Positions 1 to 8,780 of a stretch of 64,000 bases of DNA are shown piece after piece (positions within the stretch are counted from its first letter, which is position 1; every line of letters starts with the position of its first letter). A program made the position numbers and the translations under genes. This DNA is from Tenacibaculum sp. (lineage in GTDB: Bacteria > Bacteroidota > Bacteroidia > Flavobacteriales > Flavobacteriaceae). The stretch lies in assembly GCA_020629275.1 (NCBI GenBank), contig JAHDDQ010000002.1:28826-92825 (forward strand). Direction: 5' to 3'. Below the pieces are notes generated by a model that had not been told where the DNA came from, made no database searches, and worked only from the letters and a program-made list of their open reading frames with translations.

Positions 1-2
1 AA

Positions 3-776
3 CGTTTAAAAATAAAAGCTTATAATCAATTAGGAACGTCAGGAGGAGGTAATCATTTTGTTGAGTTTGGAATAGTAAACATCACCGATGAGAAGAATGA
101 ATTTCAACTTCCAATAGGCGATTATGTGGGGTTATTAACACACAGTGGAAGTCGTGGACTTGGAGCGAATATTGCGAAACACTATACCTATTTAGCTACA
201 AAACAATGTCCGTTACCGAAAAATGTACAGCATTTGGCTTGGTTAGATATGGATACACATGACGGACAGGAATATTGGTTAGCGATGAATTTAGCAGGTG
301 ACTACGCAAAAGCTTGTCACGATAATATTCATAAACGAGTTGGAAAACTGTTGGGCTCTAAAGCAATTGCTAAAATTGAGAATCATCACAATTTCGCATG
401 GAAAGAACAAGTAAACGGAGAAGAGTTAATAGTTCATAGAAAAGGCGCAACGCCAGCTAATAAAGGAGCATTAGGTATTATTCCAGGTTCTATGACAGCA
501 CCAGGATATATTGTTCGCGGTTTAGGGAATTCAGAAAGTTTAAACTCAGCTTCACATGGAGCAGGAAGAAAACATTCTCGAAGAAAGTGTAAAGAGAAAT
601 TTACTAAAAGCGATATCAAACATCAGTTAAATATGAATGGTGTGAGTCTTATAGGAGGTGGAATTGACGAAGCTCCAATGGCTTATAAAAACATAAAAAA
701 AGTCATGGCGAATCAGCAAGAGTTAGTTGAAGTTTTAGGAACATTTACACCGAAGATTGTACGAATGGATAAATAA
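3..776 (+). CDS. rtcB: RtcB family RNA ligase, 5' end cut off by the window
   Basis: The frame is open from base 3, giving 257 residues; the first ATG in frame (126) is internal because conserved sequence lies upstream of it. Visible family motifs are GGGNHFVEF at the start, HSGSRGLG, NHHNFAW (metal-binding histidines) and ASHGAGRKHSR, which carries the histidine that is guanylylated in RtcB. RtcB joins RNA ends with 2',3'-cyclic or 3'-phosphate to 5'-OH ends using GTP and Mn2+. RtcB proteins are usually 370-480 residues, so the first third or more is missing. With prfH two genes downstream this looks like the RtcB2-PrfH pair that rescues ribosomes cut in the decoding centre (established for that pair); a role on the tRNA-like array nearby is inference. 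Confidence 0.95.
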   Translation, partial: RLKIKAYNQLGTSGGGNHFVEFGIVNITDEKNEFQLPIGDYVGLLTHSGSRGLGANIAKHYTYLATKQCPLPKNVQHLAWLDMDTHDGQEYWLAMNLAGDYAKACHDNIHKRVGKLLGSKAIAKIENHHNFAWKEQVNGEELIVHRKGATPANKGALGIIPGSMTAPGYIVRGLGNSESLNSASHGAGRKHSRRKCKEKFTKSDIKHQLNMNGVSLIGGGIDEAPMAYKNIKKVMANQQELVEVLGTFTPKIVRMDK

Positions 777-1559: not shown

Positions 1560-2252
1560 ATGGAAACAAAAATAATACAGTTAACAGCAGCCAAAGGTCC
1601 ATCAGAATGCGCATGGGTAGTTGCTAAAGTGTTAAAGATATTTTTAAAAGAAGTAATTCAAAATAAGATTGAATATAAAGTTATTCATAAAGTTAACGGT
1701 TTAGAAAACGGAACAGTTCAATCCGTAACTATTGAATTAAAAGGAGGTCAATTGACGACCCTTTTAAGTAATTGGACAGGAACAATTCAATGGATAGGAA
1801 CATCAACTTTTAGAAAATATCATAAACGAAAGAATTGGTTTATTGGTTGTTATGAATTGGATATATGTGAAGAAAACGCAATTTCAGAGCATGAAATTCA
1901 ATTTCAAGCGATACGAAGTTCAGGACCAGGTGGGCAACATGTAAATAAAGTAAGTTCTGCAATACGCGCAAAACATATACCAACTGGAGTTCAAGTATTA
2001 GTTTCAGAAAGTCGGTCGCAGCATCAAAATAAAAAAATCGCACGACAACGATTAAAAGAAAAAATAACGAATCATAATACCAATCAGTTAAAAGAATCTA
2101 TTAAGAATGAATGGGAGAATCACCTAACATTACAAAGAGGTAATCCAGTACGAGTTTTTAAAGGTTCAGATTTTAAACAGCAAAAAACAGAAAAATCATT
2201 CAAAACAAAACGTAATCAATTAAAAAATGATCTACGTAAACAGTTAGAATAA
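1560..2252 (+). CDS. prfH: peptide chain release factor H (PrfH)
   Basis: The 230-residue protein has the class I release-factor catalytic segment SGPGGQHVNK with GGQ at residues 124-126, followed by the basic SESRSQHQNKKIARQRL helix. It lacks the long codon-recognition domain of RF1/RF2. PrfH hydrolyses peptidyl-tRNA on ribosomes damaged in the decoding centre, after which the partner RtcB reseals the 16S rRNA; this is established for the PrfH/RtcB pair. It follows the nucleotidyltransferase gene by 5 bases, and the next coding sequence begins about 70 bases later, so an operon is likely. GGQ and its flanks are intact. Confidence 0.93.
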   Translation: METKIIQLTAAKGPSECAWVVAKVLKIFLKEVIQNKIEYKVIHKVNGLENGTVQSVTIELKGGQLTTLLSNWTGTIQWIGTSTFRKYHKRKNWFIGCYELDICEENAISEHEIQFQAIRSSGPGGQHVNKVSSAIRAKHIPTGVQVLVSESRSQHQNKKIARQRLKEKITNHNTNQLKESIKNEWENHLTLQRGNPVRVFKGSDFKQQKTEKSFKTKRNQLKNDLRKQLE

Positions 2253-2321
2253 TTGAATGTCATTACAAGTGAAGGGAGACAATCTATTCCTTTGATGATT
2301 TGTAATATAAAAAGAAAACAA

Positions 2322-2852
2322 ATGGGAACATTAGCAAATAATTACATTTTTAAAGCATTAGATGCATATCCGTATGACTTGGAAGAAACTATAGAAGCAT
2401 TAACATATGCACTAGCGTATGAAGATAAAAATATAGTAGCATTAGGATTAATGGGACGTATTTATGCCGAGAAATTATACGATTATGAAAAAGCAAAAGA
2501 ATATTATACAGAAGCTTTAGCTGAAAACATTAACGCCTTTCATATTTACCCACATTACATAAGTGTATTATTATGGAATGAAGATTATGATGAAGCAAGT
2601 AAGCTAATAAAGTTTGCCTTAACAATTAAAGGAGCAGATAAAGCTGTATTGTACGTATGTAAATCACAATTACATGAGCAAAAAAAGGACTATAAGAAAG
2701 CATTAAAAACATTAAAAAAAGCAAAAGAATACACGTATAATACTGATTATTTATATGTGATTGATAGAGAAAAAGAACGTATAAAGGGAAAGTTGCCAAA
2801 AAAGAAAGAAGAAAAGAGTAAAAAGAAGAAGTCTAAAAAGAAAAGGAAATAA
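2322..2852 (+). CDS. TPR-type repeat protein
   Basis: I chose the start at 2322 (MGTLANNYIF...) because the longer frame from 2253 begins directly at the prfH stop and its first 23 residues look like read-through. The 176-residue protein is all helical with TPR-like pairs (A-L-G-L...Y-E-K-A-K-E-Y-Y, residues about 45-125) and ends in a very lysine-rich tail (about 155-176). No signal peptide is seen, so it is cytoplasmic. The basic tail may bind nucleic acid. It sits between prfH and the small unknown gene at 2878; the function is not known. Confidence 0.75.
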   Translation: MGTLANNYIFKALDAYPYDLEETIEALTYALAYEDKNIVALGLMGRIYAEKLYDYEKAKEYYTEALAENINAFHIYPHYISVLLWNEDYDEASKLIKFALTIKGADKAVLYVCKSQLHEQKKDYKKALKTLKKAKEYTYNTDYLYVIDREKERIKGKLPKKKEEKSKKKKSKKKRK

Positions 2853-5096: not shown

Positions 5097-5169
5097 GACA
5101 AGGTGGCTGAATGGTGAAGGCAGCAGACTGCAAATCTGTTTTTTATGAGTTCGAATCTCATTCTTGTCT
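5097..5169 (+). tRNA. tRNA-Cys (GCA)
   Basis: A full cloverleaf can be drawn. Acceptor 5097-5103 pairs with 5162-5168 (7 bp, one G-T). The anticodon stem is 5123-5127/5135-5139, with loop CTGCAAA giving GCA. The T arm is 5145-5149/5157-5161, with loop TTCGAAT. The discriminator is T, as usual for cysteine tRNAs. CCA is not encoded. The D stem is only 3 bp. The sequence differs from typical chromosomal tRNA-Cys and looks phage-like, but no key base is missing. Confidence 0.88.
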
Positions 5170-5212
5170 CGATGATTTAAGTAATCTCAAACAGATTTTG
5201 AAATTAAAAAGA

Positions 5213-5295
5213 GGAAGTGTTGAGCTATTAATTGGCTCGCCAGACTGTAAATCTGGTCTTTAAAAAGCTTATAGGTTTGAGTCCTATCACTTCCA
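5213..5295 (+). tRNA. tRNA-Tyr (GTA), class II
   Basis: Acceptor 5213-5219 pairs perfectly with 5288-5294; the discriminator is A5295. D stem 5222-5225/5235-5238 and anticodon stem 5240-5244/5252-5256 enclose loop CTGTAAA (GTA). A long variable arm follows, as in bacterial tRNA-Tyr, then a 5-bp T stem with loop TTTGAGT in place of the usual TTCGAAT. CCA is not encoded. Confidence 0.85.
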
Positions 5296-5296
5296 T

Positions 5297-5375
5297 AAAA
5301 GCTCTTTTAACTCAATTGGTAGAAGAGTTGGATATAAGTCTTATCTAGTTTTGGTCCGAATCCTAGATGTAGTAT
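5297..5375 (+). tRNA. decayed tRNA-like sequence with collapsed anticodon loop
   Basis: A D-arm-like block (AACTC...GAGTT around AATTGGTAG) and a T-arm block with loop TCCGAAT (4 of 5 bp) are present in normal order. The two ends show no acceptor pairing. Where the anticodon arm should be, the sequence reads ATAAG-T-CTTAT, a perfect stem with almost no loop, or alternatively a stem with an A at position 33. It cannot decode as drawn. It may be a pseudogene or a tRNA mimic. Confidence 0.5.
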
Positions 5376-5381
5376 AAAATT

Positions 5382-5454
5382 GGTTCATTGTGGTTAATGG
5401 CTAACCTTCCCGACTGTCTCTCGGGAGATACGAGTTCGATTCTCGTATGAACCG
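5382..5454 (+). tRNA. tRNA-Asp (GTC)
   Basis: Acceptor 5382-5388 pairs perfectly with 5447-5453, and the discriminator is G5454, the aspartate identity base. D stem 5392-5395/5403-5406. Anticodon stem 5409-5413/5421-5425 with loop CTGTCTC (GTC). T stem 5430-5434/5442-5446 with loop TTCGATT. CCA is not encoded. All arms pair fully. Confidence 0.9.
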
Positions 5455-5459
5455 CAAAA

Positions 5460-5532
5460 CTGGGAAGATAACGATTGGTTGTTTACCTGCTTTGGATGCA
5501 GGAGGTTGTAGGTTCGAATCCTACTTCTCAGA
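5460..5532 (+). tRNA. tRNA-Pro (TGG)
   Basis: Acceptor 5460-5466 pairs with 5525-5531 (one G-T) and begins with C1-G72 followed by A73, the hallmark of bacterial proline tRNAs. Anticodon stem 5486-5490/5498-5502 with loop TTTGGAT (TGG). T stem 5508-5512/5520-5524 with loop TTCGAAT. The D stem is weak. CCA is not encoded. It starts 5 bases after tRNA-Asp. Confidence 0.88.
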
Positions 5533-5543
5533 CTAAACTCTAG

Positions 5544-5629
5544 AAAGGAGTGTGTATAATGACTTTGGATTGTACGATGTAATTTCAATGGCTGTGAAAG
5601 AGAAACAGTACAATCCGAAAGTCATTTTT
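5544..5629 (+). promoter_or_regulatory. Shine-Dalgarno-led 7-codon frame folded into a long hairpin
   Basis: AAAGGAG (5544-5550) lies 8 bases before ATG 5559, which opens MTLDCTM and stops at 5580-5582. The start codon forms the base of a 17-bp stem with one bulge (5559-5575 with 5608-5625), loop 5576-5607, followed by five T residues. This could be a terminator whose folding depends on translation of the mini-frame, or a processing hairpin between tRNAs. Confidence 0.45.
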
Positions 5630-5700
5630 AAATTCTAATAAAGGAGATTATAGATAAAAGAAAAAATAAGTTGCTCTAAATTATTAGTAAATAATTAAAG

Positions 5701-5783
5701 CCAGGAATGGTGTAATTGGTAGGCATACTAGATACAGAATCTAGTATCATCAAGGTTTGAGAGTTTGAGTCTTTTTTCCTAGA
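5701..5783 (+). tRNA. tRNA-Leu-like (CAG) with A33, class II
   Basis: Acceptor 5701-5707 pairs with 5776-5782 with one C-A mismatch. Anticodon stem 5728-5732/5740-5744 encloses loop TACAGAA, which places CAG in the anticodon but A, not the near-universal T, at position 33. A short variable arm (TCAA-GGT-TTGA) and a weak T stem (5 bp with two G-T, loop TTTGAGT) follow. Either a decaying tRNA-Leu or a tRNA mimic not meant for decoding. Confidence 0.65.
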
Positions 5784-5813
5784 CTATTGAGAAGATTTTT
5801 TTTCTCTAAAAGA

Positions 5814-5903
5814 TAAATCTGTGATGTAATGGTTAGCATGCAAGATTCTGATTAAAAGTCATCCATTATGGATGATGAGAATATAGCTCGAATCCTAGAG
5901 TCA
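5814..5903 (+). tRNA. decayed tRNA-like sequence (Gln-like) with inserted hairpin
   Basis: A D-arm-like block GATGTAATGGTTAGCATGC is followed by TTCTGAT, which would place CTG (Gln) in an anticodon loop, but the flanking bases do not pair. A 7-bp hairpin with a 3-base loop (5859-5865 with 5869-5875) then occupies the variable region, and a T-loop-like CTCGAAT follows without a proper stem. The acceptor strands do not pair. Identity is uncertain. Confidence 0.4.
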
Positions 5904-5934
5904 ACCTATAAATCGCTATAATAAATTATAGGTT
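5903..5934. other. hairpin closing the first tRNA block
   Basis: A perfect 9-bp stem (5903-5911 with 5926-5934) with a 14-base loop lies between the last tRNA-like sequence and the YkuK-like gene. There is no immediate T run, so processing is as likely as termination. Confidence 0.4.
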
Positions 5935-6501: not shown

Positions 6502-6557
6502 TTTTAAAAATATTTTCTACTACGCAAAAAGAGTGCGCAATGGAGTTAAATATTTGC

Positions 6558-6649: not shown

Positions 6650-6818
6650 TTAAAGAAAACTCTTTAGTTTAAAAGGAAGAGCTGTGGTAAAAGATTTAGA
6701 CTAAACTGTGGAGTGATTGGATGATGTTGTTAGTGATGTATTTGCTAATGAATAGATTTTGCACAAGCACCGGAATCAACAGGATTGAAAGTAGGGAAGT
6801 ACATTTAGAGCCAATCTG
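6650..6818. other. non-coding stretch with weak tRNA-like traces
   Basis: I see no gene. A possible D-arm-like block (AGTT...AGCT around 6664-6683) follows CTCTT at 6660-6664, which could pair with AAGAG at 6855-6859 after the next T arm; this would need a long insertion and is weak. Otherwise nothing recognisable. Confidence 0.25.
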
Positions 6819-6862
6819 CTTTACGTAATTAAAGAGTATCAGTTCGAATCTGATAAGAGATA
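6819..6862 (+). tRNA. tRNA fragment: anticodon-like arm plus perfect T arm
   Basis: A 5-bp stem (6819-6823 with 6830-6834) with a 6-base loop CGTAAT is followed after a short linker by a T arm of 6 bp (6837-6842 with 6850-6855) with the canonical loop TTCGAAT. The loop is one base short; if T33 was lost the anticodon would be GTA. No 5' acceptor or D arm is found in a convincing place nearby. Confidence 0.45.
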
Positions 6863-6885
6863 CAAGTTCATTGAAAAAATAAAGA

Positions 6886-6966: not shown

Positions 6967-7072
6967 GAAAAATATCAAGCTAGTCTTGTTGTGTGTTTCT
7001 GTATAGCACCATTGTATATATACTTACAAATATTGTATCAGATATGTATATGCAACTTGACTTGAAGGTTTT

Positions 7073-7094
7073 GATTATTTACCAAAAAATAATC
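7073..7094 (+). other. hairpin at the 5' edge of the permuted tRNA block
   Basis: An 8-bp A/T-rich stem (7073-7080 with 7087-7094) with loop ACCAAA ends exactly where the 3' half of the first permuted tRNA would begin. It may direct cleavage that makes that end. Confidence 0.45.
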
Positions 7095-7173
7095 TCACAC
7101 TATAGGTCGCGGGTTCGAATCCCGTCATAAACTCATAGTTTATGTAGTTCAGTTTGGTTAGAACAATAGATTT
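7095..7173 (+). tRNA. circularly permuted tRNA-Glu-like gene
   Basis: The 3' half comes first: anticodon bases TCAC, stem 7099-7103, variable 7104-7108, T stem 7109-7113/7121-7125 with loop TTCGAAT, acceptor strand 7126-7132. After the 5-base spacer TCATA comes the 5' half: acceptor strand 7138-7144 (7 of 7 bp with 7126-7132), D stem 7147-7150/7161-7164, anticodon stem 7166-7170. 27-30 pair with 40-43 across the permutation. Joining 7173 to 7095 gives anticodon TTC (joining one base earlier gives CTC), both glutamate, with A37 and C38 as in known tRNA-Glu. No normal-order fold is possible. Confidence 0.72.
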
Positions 7174-7174
7174 C

Positions 7175-7258
7175 AGAGTTCGTGGGTTCGAATCCCACTC
7201 CCGAAAAATCGGGATGGCAGAGTGGTCAAATGCGTTGGACTGAAAATCCAATAACTCT
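7175..7258 (+). tRNA. circularly permuted class II tRNA-like gene (Ser-like body, anticodon GAA)
   Basis: First the 3' half: variable-arm strand 7175-7180, T stem 7182-7186/7194-7198 with TTCGAAT loop, acceptor strand 7199-7204. After the spacer AAAA comes acceptor strand 7209-7214 (6 bp), D arm, anticodon stem 7235-7239/7247-7251 with loop CTGAAAA, then variable-arm strand 7253-7258, which pairs 6 of 6 with 7175-7180. So the open ends lie in the variable-arm loop. The D-arm region (TGGCAGAGTGGTCAAATGCG) resembles serine tRNAs, but the anticodon reads GAA (Phe); a one-base loss from a TGA loop would explain it. Confidence 0.7.
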
Positions 7259-7275
7259 CAGGCACTTTTATGTCT

Positions 7276-7373
7276 GTTTTTAGCACAGGTTCGATTCCTG
7301 TCAAGGCCACCAAAAATAGGCCTTGTAGCTCAGTTGGTAGAGCACTACACTCATAATGTAGGATATCCAAAAC
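7276..7373 (+). tRNA. circularly permuted tRNA-Met-like gene (CAT) with encoded CCA
   Basis: T stem 7285-7289/7297-7301 with loop TTCGATT, acceptor strand 7302-7308, A73, then CCA at 7310-7312. After AAAATA comes acceptor strand 7319-7325 (7 of 7 bp), D stem 7328-7331/7340-7343 with loop AGTTGGTA, and anticodon stem 7345-7349/7357-7361 with loop CTCATAA (CAT). The open ends lie in the variable region; flanks GTTTT (7276-7280) and AAAAC (7369-7373) could clamp them together. All canonical bases are present and the encoded CCA argues that the 3' end is processed to a usable tRNA. Confidence 0.75.
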
Positions 7374-7520
7374 TTGTGAATAACAGGTTCTACTTTTAGA
7401 TGGTAGTTTTTTAAGCACATCACCTTGTAAAACTGATGAACAAAATGAAGTATTGTTAATGAGTTTATTTATAAACACTCATGAAAATACCAGATAAAAT
7501 GTTTAATGTTAAAATTAGAT
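7374..7520. other. non-coding stretch after the permuted tRNAs
   Basis: No gene is seen. A hairpin of about 10 bp with one bulge lies near 7459-7483 (ATGAGT with ACTCAT, then TTTA with TAAA). A T-arm-like AACAGGTTC at 7382-7390 has no partner strand. Confidence 0.3.
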
Positions 7521-7679: not shown

Positions 7680-8780
7680 ATGAAAAGAGTTAGAATCCTT
7701 AGAGGAAAAGTAGGGTTAGTGTTCAGGAACGGTAATTACCAAAAGATAATTAAAGAAGGAGTACATTGGTTAGGTTTTAATCAACAAGTAGTTGTTTACG
7801 ATAAGTCAAGTCAATTTCACCCAACAATTGCAACCGAAATTTTATTACGAGATGAAAAATTAGTAGACATGCTAGAAGTGGTTGAAGTAAAAGATACAGA
7901 GTTAGTATTAGTTTACGAAAATGAGAACTTCAAAACGGTATTACAATCAGGGAGATATATGTATTGGAAAGGGCTTATAAAAAGAGTCTTTACAAGAGTA
8001 GATATTAGTAAAATTGAAATTACTGAAACGATTAATAAAGCACTATTATCAAATTATGAAATTGCAAAATACATAAGAACTTTCGAAGTATTCTCATATG
8101 AAAAAGCCATTTTATTAATAGATGATGTGTATAGGCAGATATTAACAGGAGGTACGTATAGGTTTTGGAAAAACAATACTTCCGTTAAGATTGCTAAAGT
8201 TGATACGCGTCAGTTACAATTAGAAATTACTGGTCAAGAATTGTTAACTAAAGATAAAGCTAACATTAGAGTTAATTTTTACACAAATTATAAAGTTAAG
8301 AGCATTGAAAAAGCATTATTGTATACTAAAGATTATGAAAAACAATTATATGTAGCAATGCAATTAGCATTACGAGAGTATATTGGAACTTATACGTTAG
8401 ATGAATTATTAGAAAATAAAGAAGATATAGCTAAAGCAGTTTTAATTGCAACAAAAGTGGTTGCTGAGAAACTAGGAGTTGTAATTGTAAGTTGTGGAAT
8501 TAGAGATGTGATTTTACCTGGTGATATGAAAGAAATTATGAATCAAGTATTAGTTGCACAAAAGAAGGCACAAGCTAATATTATTACAAGGCGAGAAGAA
8601 ACAGCATCTACAAGAAGTTTATTAAATACCGCTAAGTTAATGCAAGACAATGAGATGTTATATAAGCTGAAAGAAATGGAATACGTAGAAAAGATTGCAG
8701 ACAAGATTGGTGAAATTACCGTTTCTGGAAATGGGAATATGGTAAAACAATTAAAAGAACTTTTTGCTGCAACTAAATAA
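7680..8780 (+). CDS. slipin-type SPFH/band-7 protein
   Basis: The 366-residue protein starts with an RNA-repair-type slipin N-terminus (MKRVRILRGKVGLVFRNGNY, with two similar 'V...F...G.Y.W' repeats within the first 120 residues) and continues with an SPFH/band-7 domain (about 110-290; VRVNFYTNYKV, ALREYIGTYTLDELL, VVAEKLGVVIVSCGIRDVILP) and a C-terminal coiled coil. There is no clear membrane anchor. Slipin genes are known neighbours of rtcB-type RNA repair genes in bacteria. It follows the tRNA array by 60-300 bases and ends in a strong palindrome, so it is probably the last gene of this locus. Confidence 0.85.
   Translation: MKRVRILRGKVGLVFRNGNYQKIIKEGVHWLGFNQQVVVYDKSSQFHPTIATEILLRDEKLVDMLEVVEVKDTELVLVYENENFKTVLQSGRYMYWKGLIKRVFTRVDISKIEITETINKALLSNYEIAKYIRTFEVFSYEKAILLIDDVYRQILTGGTYRFWKNNTSVKIAKVDTRQLQLEITGQELLTKDKANIRVNFYTNYKVKSIEKALLYTKDYEKQLYVAMQLALREYIGTYTLDELLENKEDIAKAVLIATKVVAEKLGVVIVSCGIRDVILPGDMKEIMNQVLVAQKKAQANIITRREETASTRSLLNTAKLMQDNEMLYKLKEMEYVEKIADKIGEITVSGNGNMVKQLKELFAATK

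Follow-up and report, generated by a model that had tools for sequence, protein, structure and literature searches.

A conserved region of permuted tRNA-like modules 5' of a slipin gene in an RtcB locus of Tenacibaculum sp.: a possible tRNA decoy or docking RNA

The locus and its features

The window, by which we mean the whole 64,000-nucleotide stretch of Tenacibaculum sp. DNA analysed here, begins with the 3' part of an rtcB gene (1..776, PF01139; the full protein, in L030, has 463 aa). Downstream, on the same plus strand, lie prfH, for peptide chain release factor H (1560..2252, TIGR03072 above its cut-off), a gene for a TPR protein (2253..2852, Pfam TPR) and an array of tRNA genes for Cys, Tyr, Asp, Pro and Leu called by ARAGORN (5097..5784). 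By PF01139 and TIGR03072 this is an RtcB–PrfH locus, as the preliminary description had proposed in placing its tRNA-like units beside rtcB. Degenerate tRNA-like sequences occur between the array tRNAs called by ARAGORN (5308-5375 and 5815-5910), and a gene for an RNase H-like protein (PF04308, 6016-6501) separates the array from the region described below.

A palindromic operator-like site, TACGCAAAAAGAGTGCGCA (6521..6539, plus strand), is followed by a promoter-like TTTG element that marks the predicted transcript start. Further on, at 6656-6865, there is a split tRNA-like element, whose 5' part consists of the acceptor strand CTCTT and a D arm and whose 3' part consists of a T arm and AAGAG; its halves are set apart by a conserved insert of about 150 nt, and it is visible, at least partly, in the related loci L033, L034, L036 and L039.

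From sequence comparison, the conserved region spans about 750 nt and consists of a predicted head domain, a pseudoknot and tandem tRNA-like units, all on the plus strand, with a slipin (SPFH / Band_7) gene closing it (7680..8780, plus strand, Pfam PF01145). Measured from 30 nt 5' of the head motif to slipin, its median length is 750 nt (98 loci); from the head motif itself to the slipin start, the median is 722 nt. The feature had initially been taken to extend from 7073 to 7373. The units within those limits are real, but the feature is much larger, as it also includes the head, the pseudoknot and the tail.

The head domain (6975..7065, delimited by the alignment of 23 loci) contains a conserved hairpin, GTGTTTCTGTATAGCAC, at 6993-7009. 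When 25 relatives were aligned 5' of slipin, the head sequence GTGTTTCTGTATAGCACTATTGTAT and its flanks were present in 22 of them plus the window, with at most 6 mismatches. The predicted fold has 30 pairs, 18 of which changed on both sides in at least one of the 23 sequences. A model of the head (R1) matched once each in 28 of 299 genomes of the family, including that of L053, and the distribution is patchy, the head being absent from a genome of the same genus (G131). Applied to 395 genomes of the class, R1 gave strong matches in the family only, and just two weak ones elsewhere (35.9 and 32.1 bits); since only weak matches fall outside the family, R1 is blind to the shorter heads of other families. 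There, the head is often shorter, with the loop TTTCTGTATA kept and the stem changed, for example to GGG..CCC or CGG..CCG. A head motif of the TTTCTGTATA type was not found in 8 of the 24 non-window slipin loci checked, and it was poor in some others.

Directly after the head comes an H-type pseudoknot with crossing helices (7067..7094, GGT..GATTATT-TACC-AAAA-AATAATC), whose sequence differs in relatives. In 67 of 99 loci the pseudoknot score reached the 95th percentile of letter shuffles, and a few loci (L034, L052) have a different knot as their best. The order of elements thereafter is unit A, an extra unit in some loci, and unit B. In many relatives a small anticodon-like hairpin follows unit B; next come the tail hairpin and a less conserved tail that runs up to slipin. 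In the window the tail hairpin, with its CATC/GATG stem, lies at 7414..7440 and begins the less conserved tail; in the 23-locus alignment its stem shows changes on both sides, as judged by eye.

The window holds three units. Unit 1 (7100..7170) is a permuted tRNA-like module in which a T arm (7109-7125) precedes a closed acceptor hairpin (7126-7144, CATAAACT[CAT]AGTTTATG) and a D arm (7145-7164); its outer strands, CTAT (7100-7103) and ATAG (7166-7169), pair in place of an anticodon stem. Unit 2 (7175..7258), an extra module, has its T arm at 7182-7198, the acceptor hairpin TCCCGA[AAAA]TCGGGA, a D arm at 7215-7233, a GAA anticodon arm at 7235-7251 and a long variable-arm clamp formed by the pairing of AGAGTT with AACTCT (6 bp). 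Unit 3 (7285..7361) comprises a T arm (7285-7301), an acceptor hairpin in which CAAGGCC and GGCCTTG enclose the 10-nt loop ACCAAAAATA, a D arm (7326-7343) and a CAT anticodon arm (7345-7361); ACCA is present in the acceptor loop. The acceptor helices of units 1, 2 and 3 have 8, 6 and 7 bp, respectively.

After rotation, all three window units were called as tRNAs by ARAGORN, with anticodons CAG (unit 1), GAA, i.e., tRNA-Phe (unit 2), and CAT (unit 3), the CAG call being meaningless because the anticodon loop of unit 1 is open. The coordinates and anatomy first reported are confirmed, with the 3' half before the 5' half in every unit, and the pairing of outer ends reported for units 1 and 2 was likewise recovered. 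The folding z-scores of the three units were −1.3, −1.4 and −3.6. Folding of the single sequence is thus weak, with only unit 3 distinct by energy, and we therefore relied on comparison.

The window can also be read in the normal order. The Rfam tRNA model gave a match above threshold across units 2 and 3 (7215-7301, 39.0 bits; model positions 8-63, without the acceptor) and another at 7319-7375 (32.6 bits), and it did so in several relatives as well. ARAGORN, run on the window, called no tRNA in normal order at either place.

Conservation and covariation of the units

A scan of GTDB genomes with a head pattern returned at least 116 stretches, 80 of which were taken for study (the named loci). 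Going by their titles, nearly all come from what we take to be Flavobacteriaceae, in more than 20 genera. Tenacibaculum, Winogradskyella, Aquimarina, Kordia, Lacinutrix and Maribacter are among these genera, and there is also one Chitinophagales MAG. Pooling with the loci collected earlier gave 110 with a head, 103 of them unique and 101 long enough; L054 and L056 (no head), seven duplicate cores and two loci with short cores had been dropped before counting. Two units were found in 68 of the 101 loci, with a range of one to three. The trio originally described is thus present in the window, but it is not the typical state, and unit 2 is an extra.

For a blind test, units were defined by their T arm and D arm alone, following the tRNA consensus for these arms, and the acceptor was ignored. 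This yielded 170 units in 99 of the 101 loci. The outer five acceptor positions paired 5/5 in 141 units and 4/5 in 12, while 17 units had 3/5 or fewer. When halves were swapped between units, 5/5 pairing fell to 6.2% on average (largest value, 13.5%). The paired units contained 74 distinct acceptor helices. When the 5' half of each unit was combined with the 3' half of the next, as in the normal order, none of 71 combinations paired 5/5 and 10 paired 4/5, which speaks against the normal-order reading of the sequence. Hence, acceptor strands pair within units and not with their neighbours, as had been claimed for the window, and this pairing is kept in relatives through many compensatory changes. 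As the acceptors covary, both chance and a relic origin are excluded.

A second set, of 190 units, came from a finder that demands acceptor pairing (at least 5 pairs after filtering). Counts from this set lean towards pairing because the finder requires it, and the blind set is the fair test. ARAGORN called a tRNA in 149 of the 190 units after rotation, compared with 40-58 for swapped halves (10 repeats), 0 for shuffled letters (5 repeats) and 0 for unrotated units. The calls thus go beyond what chance would give.

The acceptor hairpins vary in a way that matters for their interpretation. In the 190-unit set, 99 helices had at least 7 pairs and 91 had only 5-6. Loops of 3-4 nt closed 98 of them (17 GAAA and 11 UAAC), a figure that varies with the extension given to the helix; when both strands were fixed at 7 nt, at most 5 nt lay between them in 99 of the 170 blind units. 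In 14 of the 190 units no nucleotide was left for a discriminator base, and in 13, including unit 3 of the window, the loop started with (N)CCA. With only 5-6 pairs in about half of the acceptor stems, and tetraloops on many, the majority of units resemble the closed tRNA mimic of the Y RNA YrlA.

The anticodon arms tell a similar story. The later units had a canonical anticodon stem in 81 of 97 cases, against 24% for swapped strands (largest value, 34%), with 19 distinct stems. U33 was kept in 80 of the 81 intact arms, and 17 different anticodons were present. It is thus the shape of the anticodon loop that is preserved, whereas its codon meaning drifts. Stem and U33 being kept while anticodons vary, the units resemble a general tRNA mimic rather than a decoder. 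In first units, the outer strands paired 5/5 in 82 of 97 cases, mostly as TCTAT/ATAGA or TCTGT/ACAGA, compared with 51% for swapped strands and 17% for shuffled letters; the covariation here is modest because the helices are so alike.

Linkage to slipin, and the operator

Slipin lay directly 3' of the RNA in 67 of the 67 named loci with room for it, a figure that is conditional on the head motif. Among the named loci, at least one tRNA lay upstream in 54 of the 64 that had 1.5 kb of sequence on that side, and a TPR protein in 39 of the 54 that had 3 kb. An rtcB related to that of the window was present in 17 of the 80 named loci, and prfH in 16, in flanks that often end before such genes.

The linkage was also approached from the slipin side. 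Searches for slipin gave matches in 26 of 249 family genomes, counting that of the window, and in 26 of 395 Bacteroidia genomes. A script looking for units with at least 5 acceptor pairs 5' of slipin found them in 22 of 25 loci, the window's own locus being left aside. It found none in L200, L203 and L205, and inspection of L203 by eye revealed a T arm and a near-complete hairpin. Outside the family, 18 of 21 slipin loci, from 12 other families, had upstream units. In 5 of 6 fetched regions of other genomes, whose ORFs were partly scanned, RtcB stood behind slipin, once with a TPR gene in between.

Two genomes depart from this arrangement. G200 has a slipin fragment without the RNA. In G036 (L246, 6000-8100), the head is kept without slipin and without the remainder of the RNA, a joint absence that looks like a single deletion; what follows this head is an operator-like site, a small ORF, rtcB and, at a greater distance, an RlaP gene.

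The operator sequence TACGCAAAAAGAGTGCGCA is exact at 6521-6539; allowing up to 3 mismatches gave no further site in the window (0.05 expected). In the 4.14 Mb of the organism's own genome (89% complete), two copies were found at up to 1 mismatch, the second of which, 21 kb upstream, precedes a second rtcB; a WYL gene is divergent to this rtcB. This second rtcB, located about 12 kb upstream of the rtcB of the window, can be seen in L255 (G000:C17:12400-15800), where it is accompanied by a small ORF before it, by the operator and by a divergent gene for a WYL-WCX regulator. The two rtcB genes of this genome are 28% identical.

Of the 80 named loci, not filtered for room, 36 had an operator-like palindrome no more than 1.5 kb 5' of the head, and similar sites precede the RNA in several other families. 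Furthermore, a gene for a WYL-WCX regulator is divergent to the RNA in 4 of 6 fetched regions (the regulator loci being L217-L220). The WYL protein may bind the operator site, and the RNA is apparently co-regulated with an RtcB. Other transcription signals were less telling. The terminator-like hairpin between units 2 and 3 (7259-7276) is no more than chance gives (1 found, 0.5 expected), and sigma-70 promoter-like sites numbered 7, against 5.8 expected.

Some elements outside Bacteroidota are leads only. In Citrobacter, rtcR is followed by a 450-nt gap containing a T arm and a hairpin, then by slipin and a nucleotidyltransferase gene. Three enterobacterial slipin/nucleotidyltransferase loci (L210, L214, L216) have a conserved gap of about 250 nt with a T arm and a hairpin 5' of slipin, and no D arm was seen in the enterobacterial gap on inspection by eye. 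In E. coli, 1624 of 5426 genomes partly match 301 bases of the Citrobacter gap (78-81% identity among the matches listed), none covering 80% of it; the match stands 5' of slipin in 2 of 3 chromosomes read and 5' of the nucleotidyltransferase gene in the third. A Subdoligranulum plasmid record shows a permuted unit 5' of slipin, and Burkholderia (L212, 4590-4715) has normal-order tRNA-like elements there, one with an anticodon stem capped by GAAA.

Comparison with known RNAs and possible function

Permuted modules of D arm, T arm and acceptor are already known in bacteria from the Y RNA YrlA (PMC11472068; PMC8394870), which occurs in RtcB repair operons (PMC8394870; PMC7790460), and a solved Y RNA has been described to superpose on tRNA with a circular permutation (PMC11472068). 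Like YrlA (RF02553), the units described here have a T arm, a closed acceptor-like hairpin and a D arm in permuted order. Unlike YrlA, they come as tandem modules, the later ones with anticodon arms, and are accompanied by a head, a pseudoknot and a slipin partner; head and pseudoknot take the flanking position held in YrlA by the Rsr-binding basal stem. The Rfam YrlA model stayed below its gathering score of 69 bits on unit 1 (7079-7192, 39.3 bits) and on unit 3 (34.8 bits), and its best score in the relatives scanned was 51.5 bits. At E up to 10 the model also gave matches, all of them under the cut-off, in 13 of 14 control genomes; taken alone, these scores therefore mean little. By sequence, the predicted RNA has the shape of YrlA, which does not make it YrlA. 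Similarly, the Salmonella rsr-yrlBA-rtcBA operon, regulated by RtcR, combines a tRNA-mimic RNA with regulated RNA repair, but it has RtcR and Rsr in place of a WYL-type regulator and slipin.

Other identities were considered and rejected. tmRNA, including its permuted form (RF00023, RF04321), also sets a tRNA-like domain beside a pseudoknot, but the window match amounted to 13.1 bits only, the genome has a separate, true tmRNA (141 bits) and no ORF is common to most of the loci. A coding region is equally discounted, as the longest plus-strand ORF had a median of 45 aa (largest, 90) and no ORF of at least 30 aa had relatives in more than 24 of 98 loci. GOLLD and other large ornate RNAs resemble the region in being large, structured and in or beside tRNA arrays, but no Rfam match of that kind fell in the region of the window. 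As a separate element, GOLLD was detected in the upstream tRNA arrays of two relatives (L007, 30-510, 119.1 bits; L019, 3402-3897, 124.9 bits), in strong matches below gathering. No known Rfam family accounts for the whole region, where only the tRNA model passes and YrlA and tmRNA are below threshold. When 15 loci of the family and 10 others were scanned, the YrlA and tmRNA matches again stayed below threshold, the tRNA model matched the units and, in a few loci, Flavo-1 was matched near slipin. A phage origin was rejected as well, with no slipin match in 50,697 phage records; a search of viral contigs for an exact head match, a weak search with one pattern only, also found none.

What, then, could the units be? 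The preliminary description suggested true circularly permuted tRNA genes, as found in algae and archaea, whose transcripts would be cut and then closed into circles by RtcB, with trimming at the acceptor loop. The permuted order, a rotated unit that reads as a tRNA, an rtcB in the locus and the ACCA in the loop of unit 3 would all suit such genes. Short loops alone do not exclude maturation, because the intervening sequences of known permuted tRNA genes range from 1 to 74 bp according to a review (PMC3978253), and some units could still mature, given the helices of at least 7 pairs and the loops that begin with (N)CCA. Against this stand the many helices of 5-6 bp, the short loops, often tetraloops, the units in which a discriminator base is impossible, and anticodons that vary freely instead of being conserved. 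Moreover, unit 1 lacks its own anticodon loop, normal-order genes for tRNA-Met(CAT), twice, and tRNA-Phe(GAA) exist elsewhere in the genome, and the units belong to a larger region. We consider maturation through RtcB-closed circles very improbable. The other origin named at that time, functionless relics of tandem duplicated tRNA genes, might draw on the degenerate tRNAs of the same array. However, the acceptor, the head and the pseudoknot all show compensatory changes across about 100 loci, and units are present in 12 other families, which leaves it a negligible probability.

Two further explanations retain a function for the RNA, and we regard each of them as unlikely, though less so than permuted tRNA genes. 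The modules could be a Y RNA-like scaffold, tethering an exoribonuclease (e.g., PNPase) to a protein ring or scaffold, with slipin instead of Ro60 and no decoy function. The permuted T/acceptor/D order agrees with this, as do the YrlA matches of about 29 to 51.5 bits, all below threshold, that the window and relatives gave, and a Ro60 gene (TROVE + vWA_Ro60) behind slipin in G079. Yet Ro60 was not found in 28 of 30 other carriers searched, G079 being one of the two that have it, nor in a TROVE/Ro60 search of the organism's own genome (89% complete); no YrlA match reached gathering, the model being unspecific at a loose limit, and there are two or three modules with anticodon arms rather than one. 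Alternatively, the RNA may be a cis-acting leader, a tRNA-like part of the slipin mRNA that regulates the expression of slipin in response to tRNA-binding proteins or damaged tRNA. Its position on the same strand directly 5' of slipin, and its loss together with slipin in G036, are what a leader would predict, but it is large and multi-domain for one, and head and units are, by eye, more constant than the part beside the start codon.

What the comparison of loci shows is a predicted RNA with a head, a pseudoknot, usually two modules with covarying acceptor hairpins, and a constant linkage to slipin. The best explanation, in our opinion, is that the modules form part of one conserved, structured RNA, predicted to be transcribed 5' of slipin, that serves as a tRNA decoy or docking RNA; we would give this account an even chance of being correct. 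RNA damage would lead the WYL regulator to induce the RNA from its conserved operator, together with an RtcB. The closed acceptor ends would keep the mimic out of charging and translation, and the T/D elbow and anticodon loop would engage tRNA-specific nucleases or tRNA-handling enzymes. In this way the mimic could spare real tRNAs, or tether an enzyme, while RtcB mends cut tRNAs; PrfH would meanwhile free ribosomes and the array supply fresh tRNAs. Slipin might have the role that Ro60 has with YrlA.

There is some precedent for these ideas. Hughes et al. (PMC7790460) suggested that the tRNA-like domain of YrlA may act as a competitive inhibitor of an anticodon nuclease; the nuclease that they examined left YrlA uncleaved, and they, too, offer the decoy as a suggestion. 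In Anabaena, an operon of 26 tRNAs, rtcB and a slipin gene are under one repressor, whose loss raises them, and the tRNA operon responds to translation inhibitors (PMC10272220). That gene set fits the one found here. The points against a decoy include the acceptor helices of at least 7 pairs and (N)CCA loops that might let some units mature, the chance-level terminator-like hairpin, the normal-order Rfam tRNA matches, the 17 of 170 units with poor pairing, the slipin loci without units and the patchiness.

A bolder version of the decoy account seems to us possible but somewhat doubtful. According to it, the RNA belongs to an unnamed, widespread family of multi-headed tRNA mimics that accompany slipin, as its noncoding partner, in RtcB repair operons. 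Such RNAs would have been built by capture and permutation of tRNA genes, carry up to three closed cloverleaves with different anticodon loops, act as a decoy switched on with RtcB and replace the Ro60–Y RNA arrangement, with counterparts 5' of slipin in Enterobacteria, Burkholderia and Firmicutes.

In the open literature we found no paper joining slipin with a tRNA-like RNA, which does not by itself establish that none is in print. So far, bacterial permuted tRNA mimics have been linked with Ro60 and YrlA. In the loci described here the principle would recur mostly without Ro60, in a larger conserved RNA fixed to slipin. Slipin thereby gains a candidate RNA partner, and the role that tRNA mimics may have in RNA repair becomes testable.
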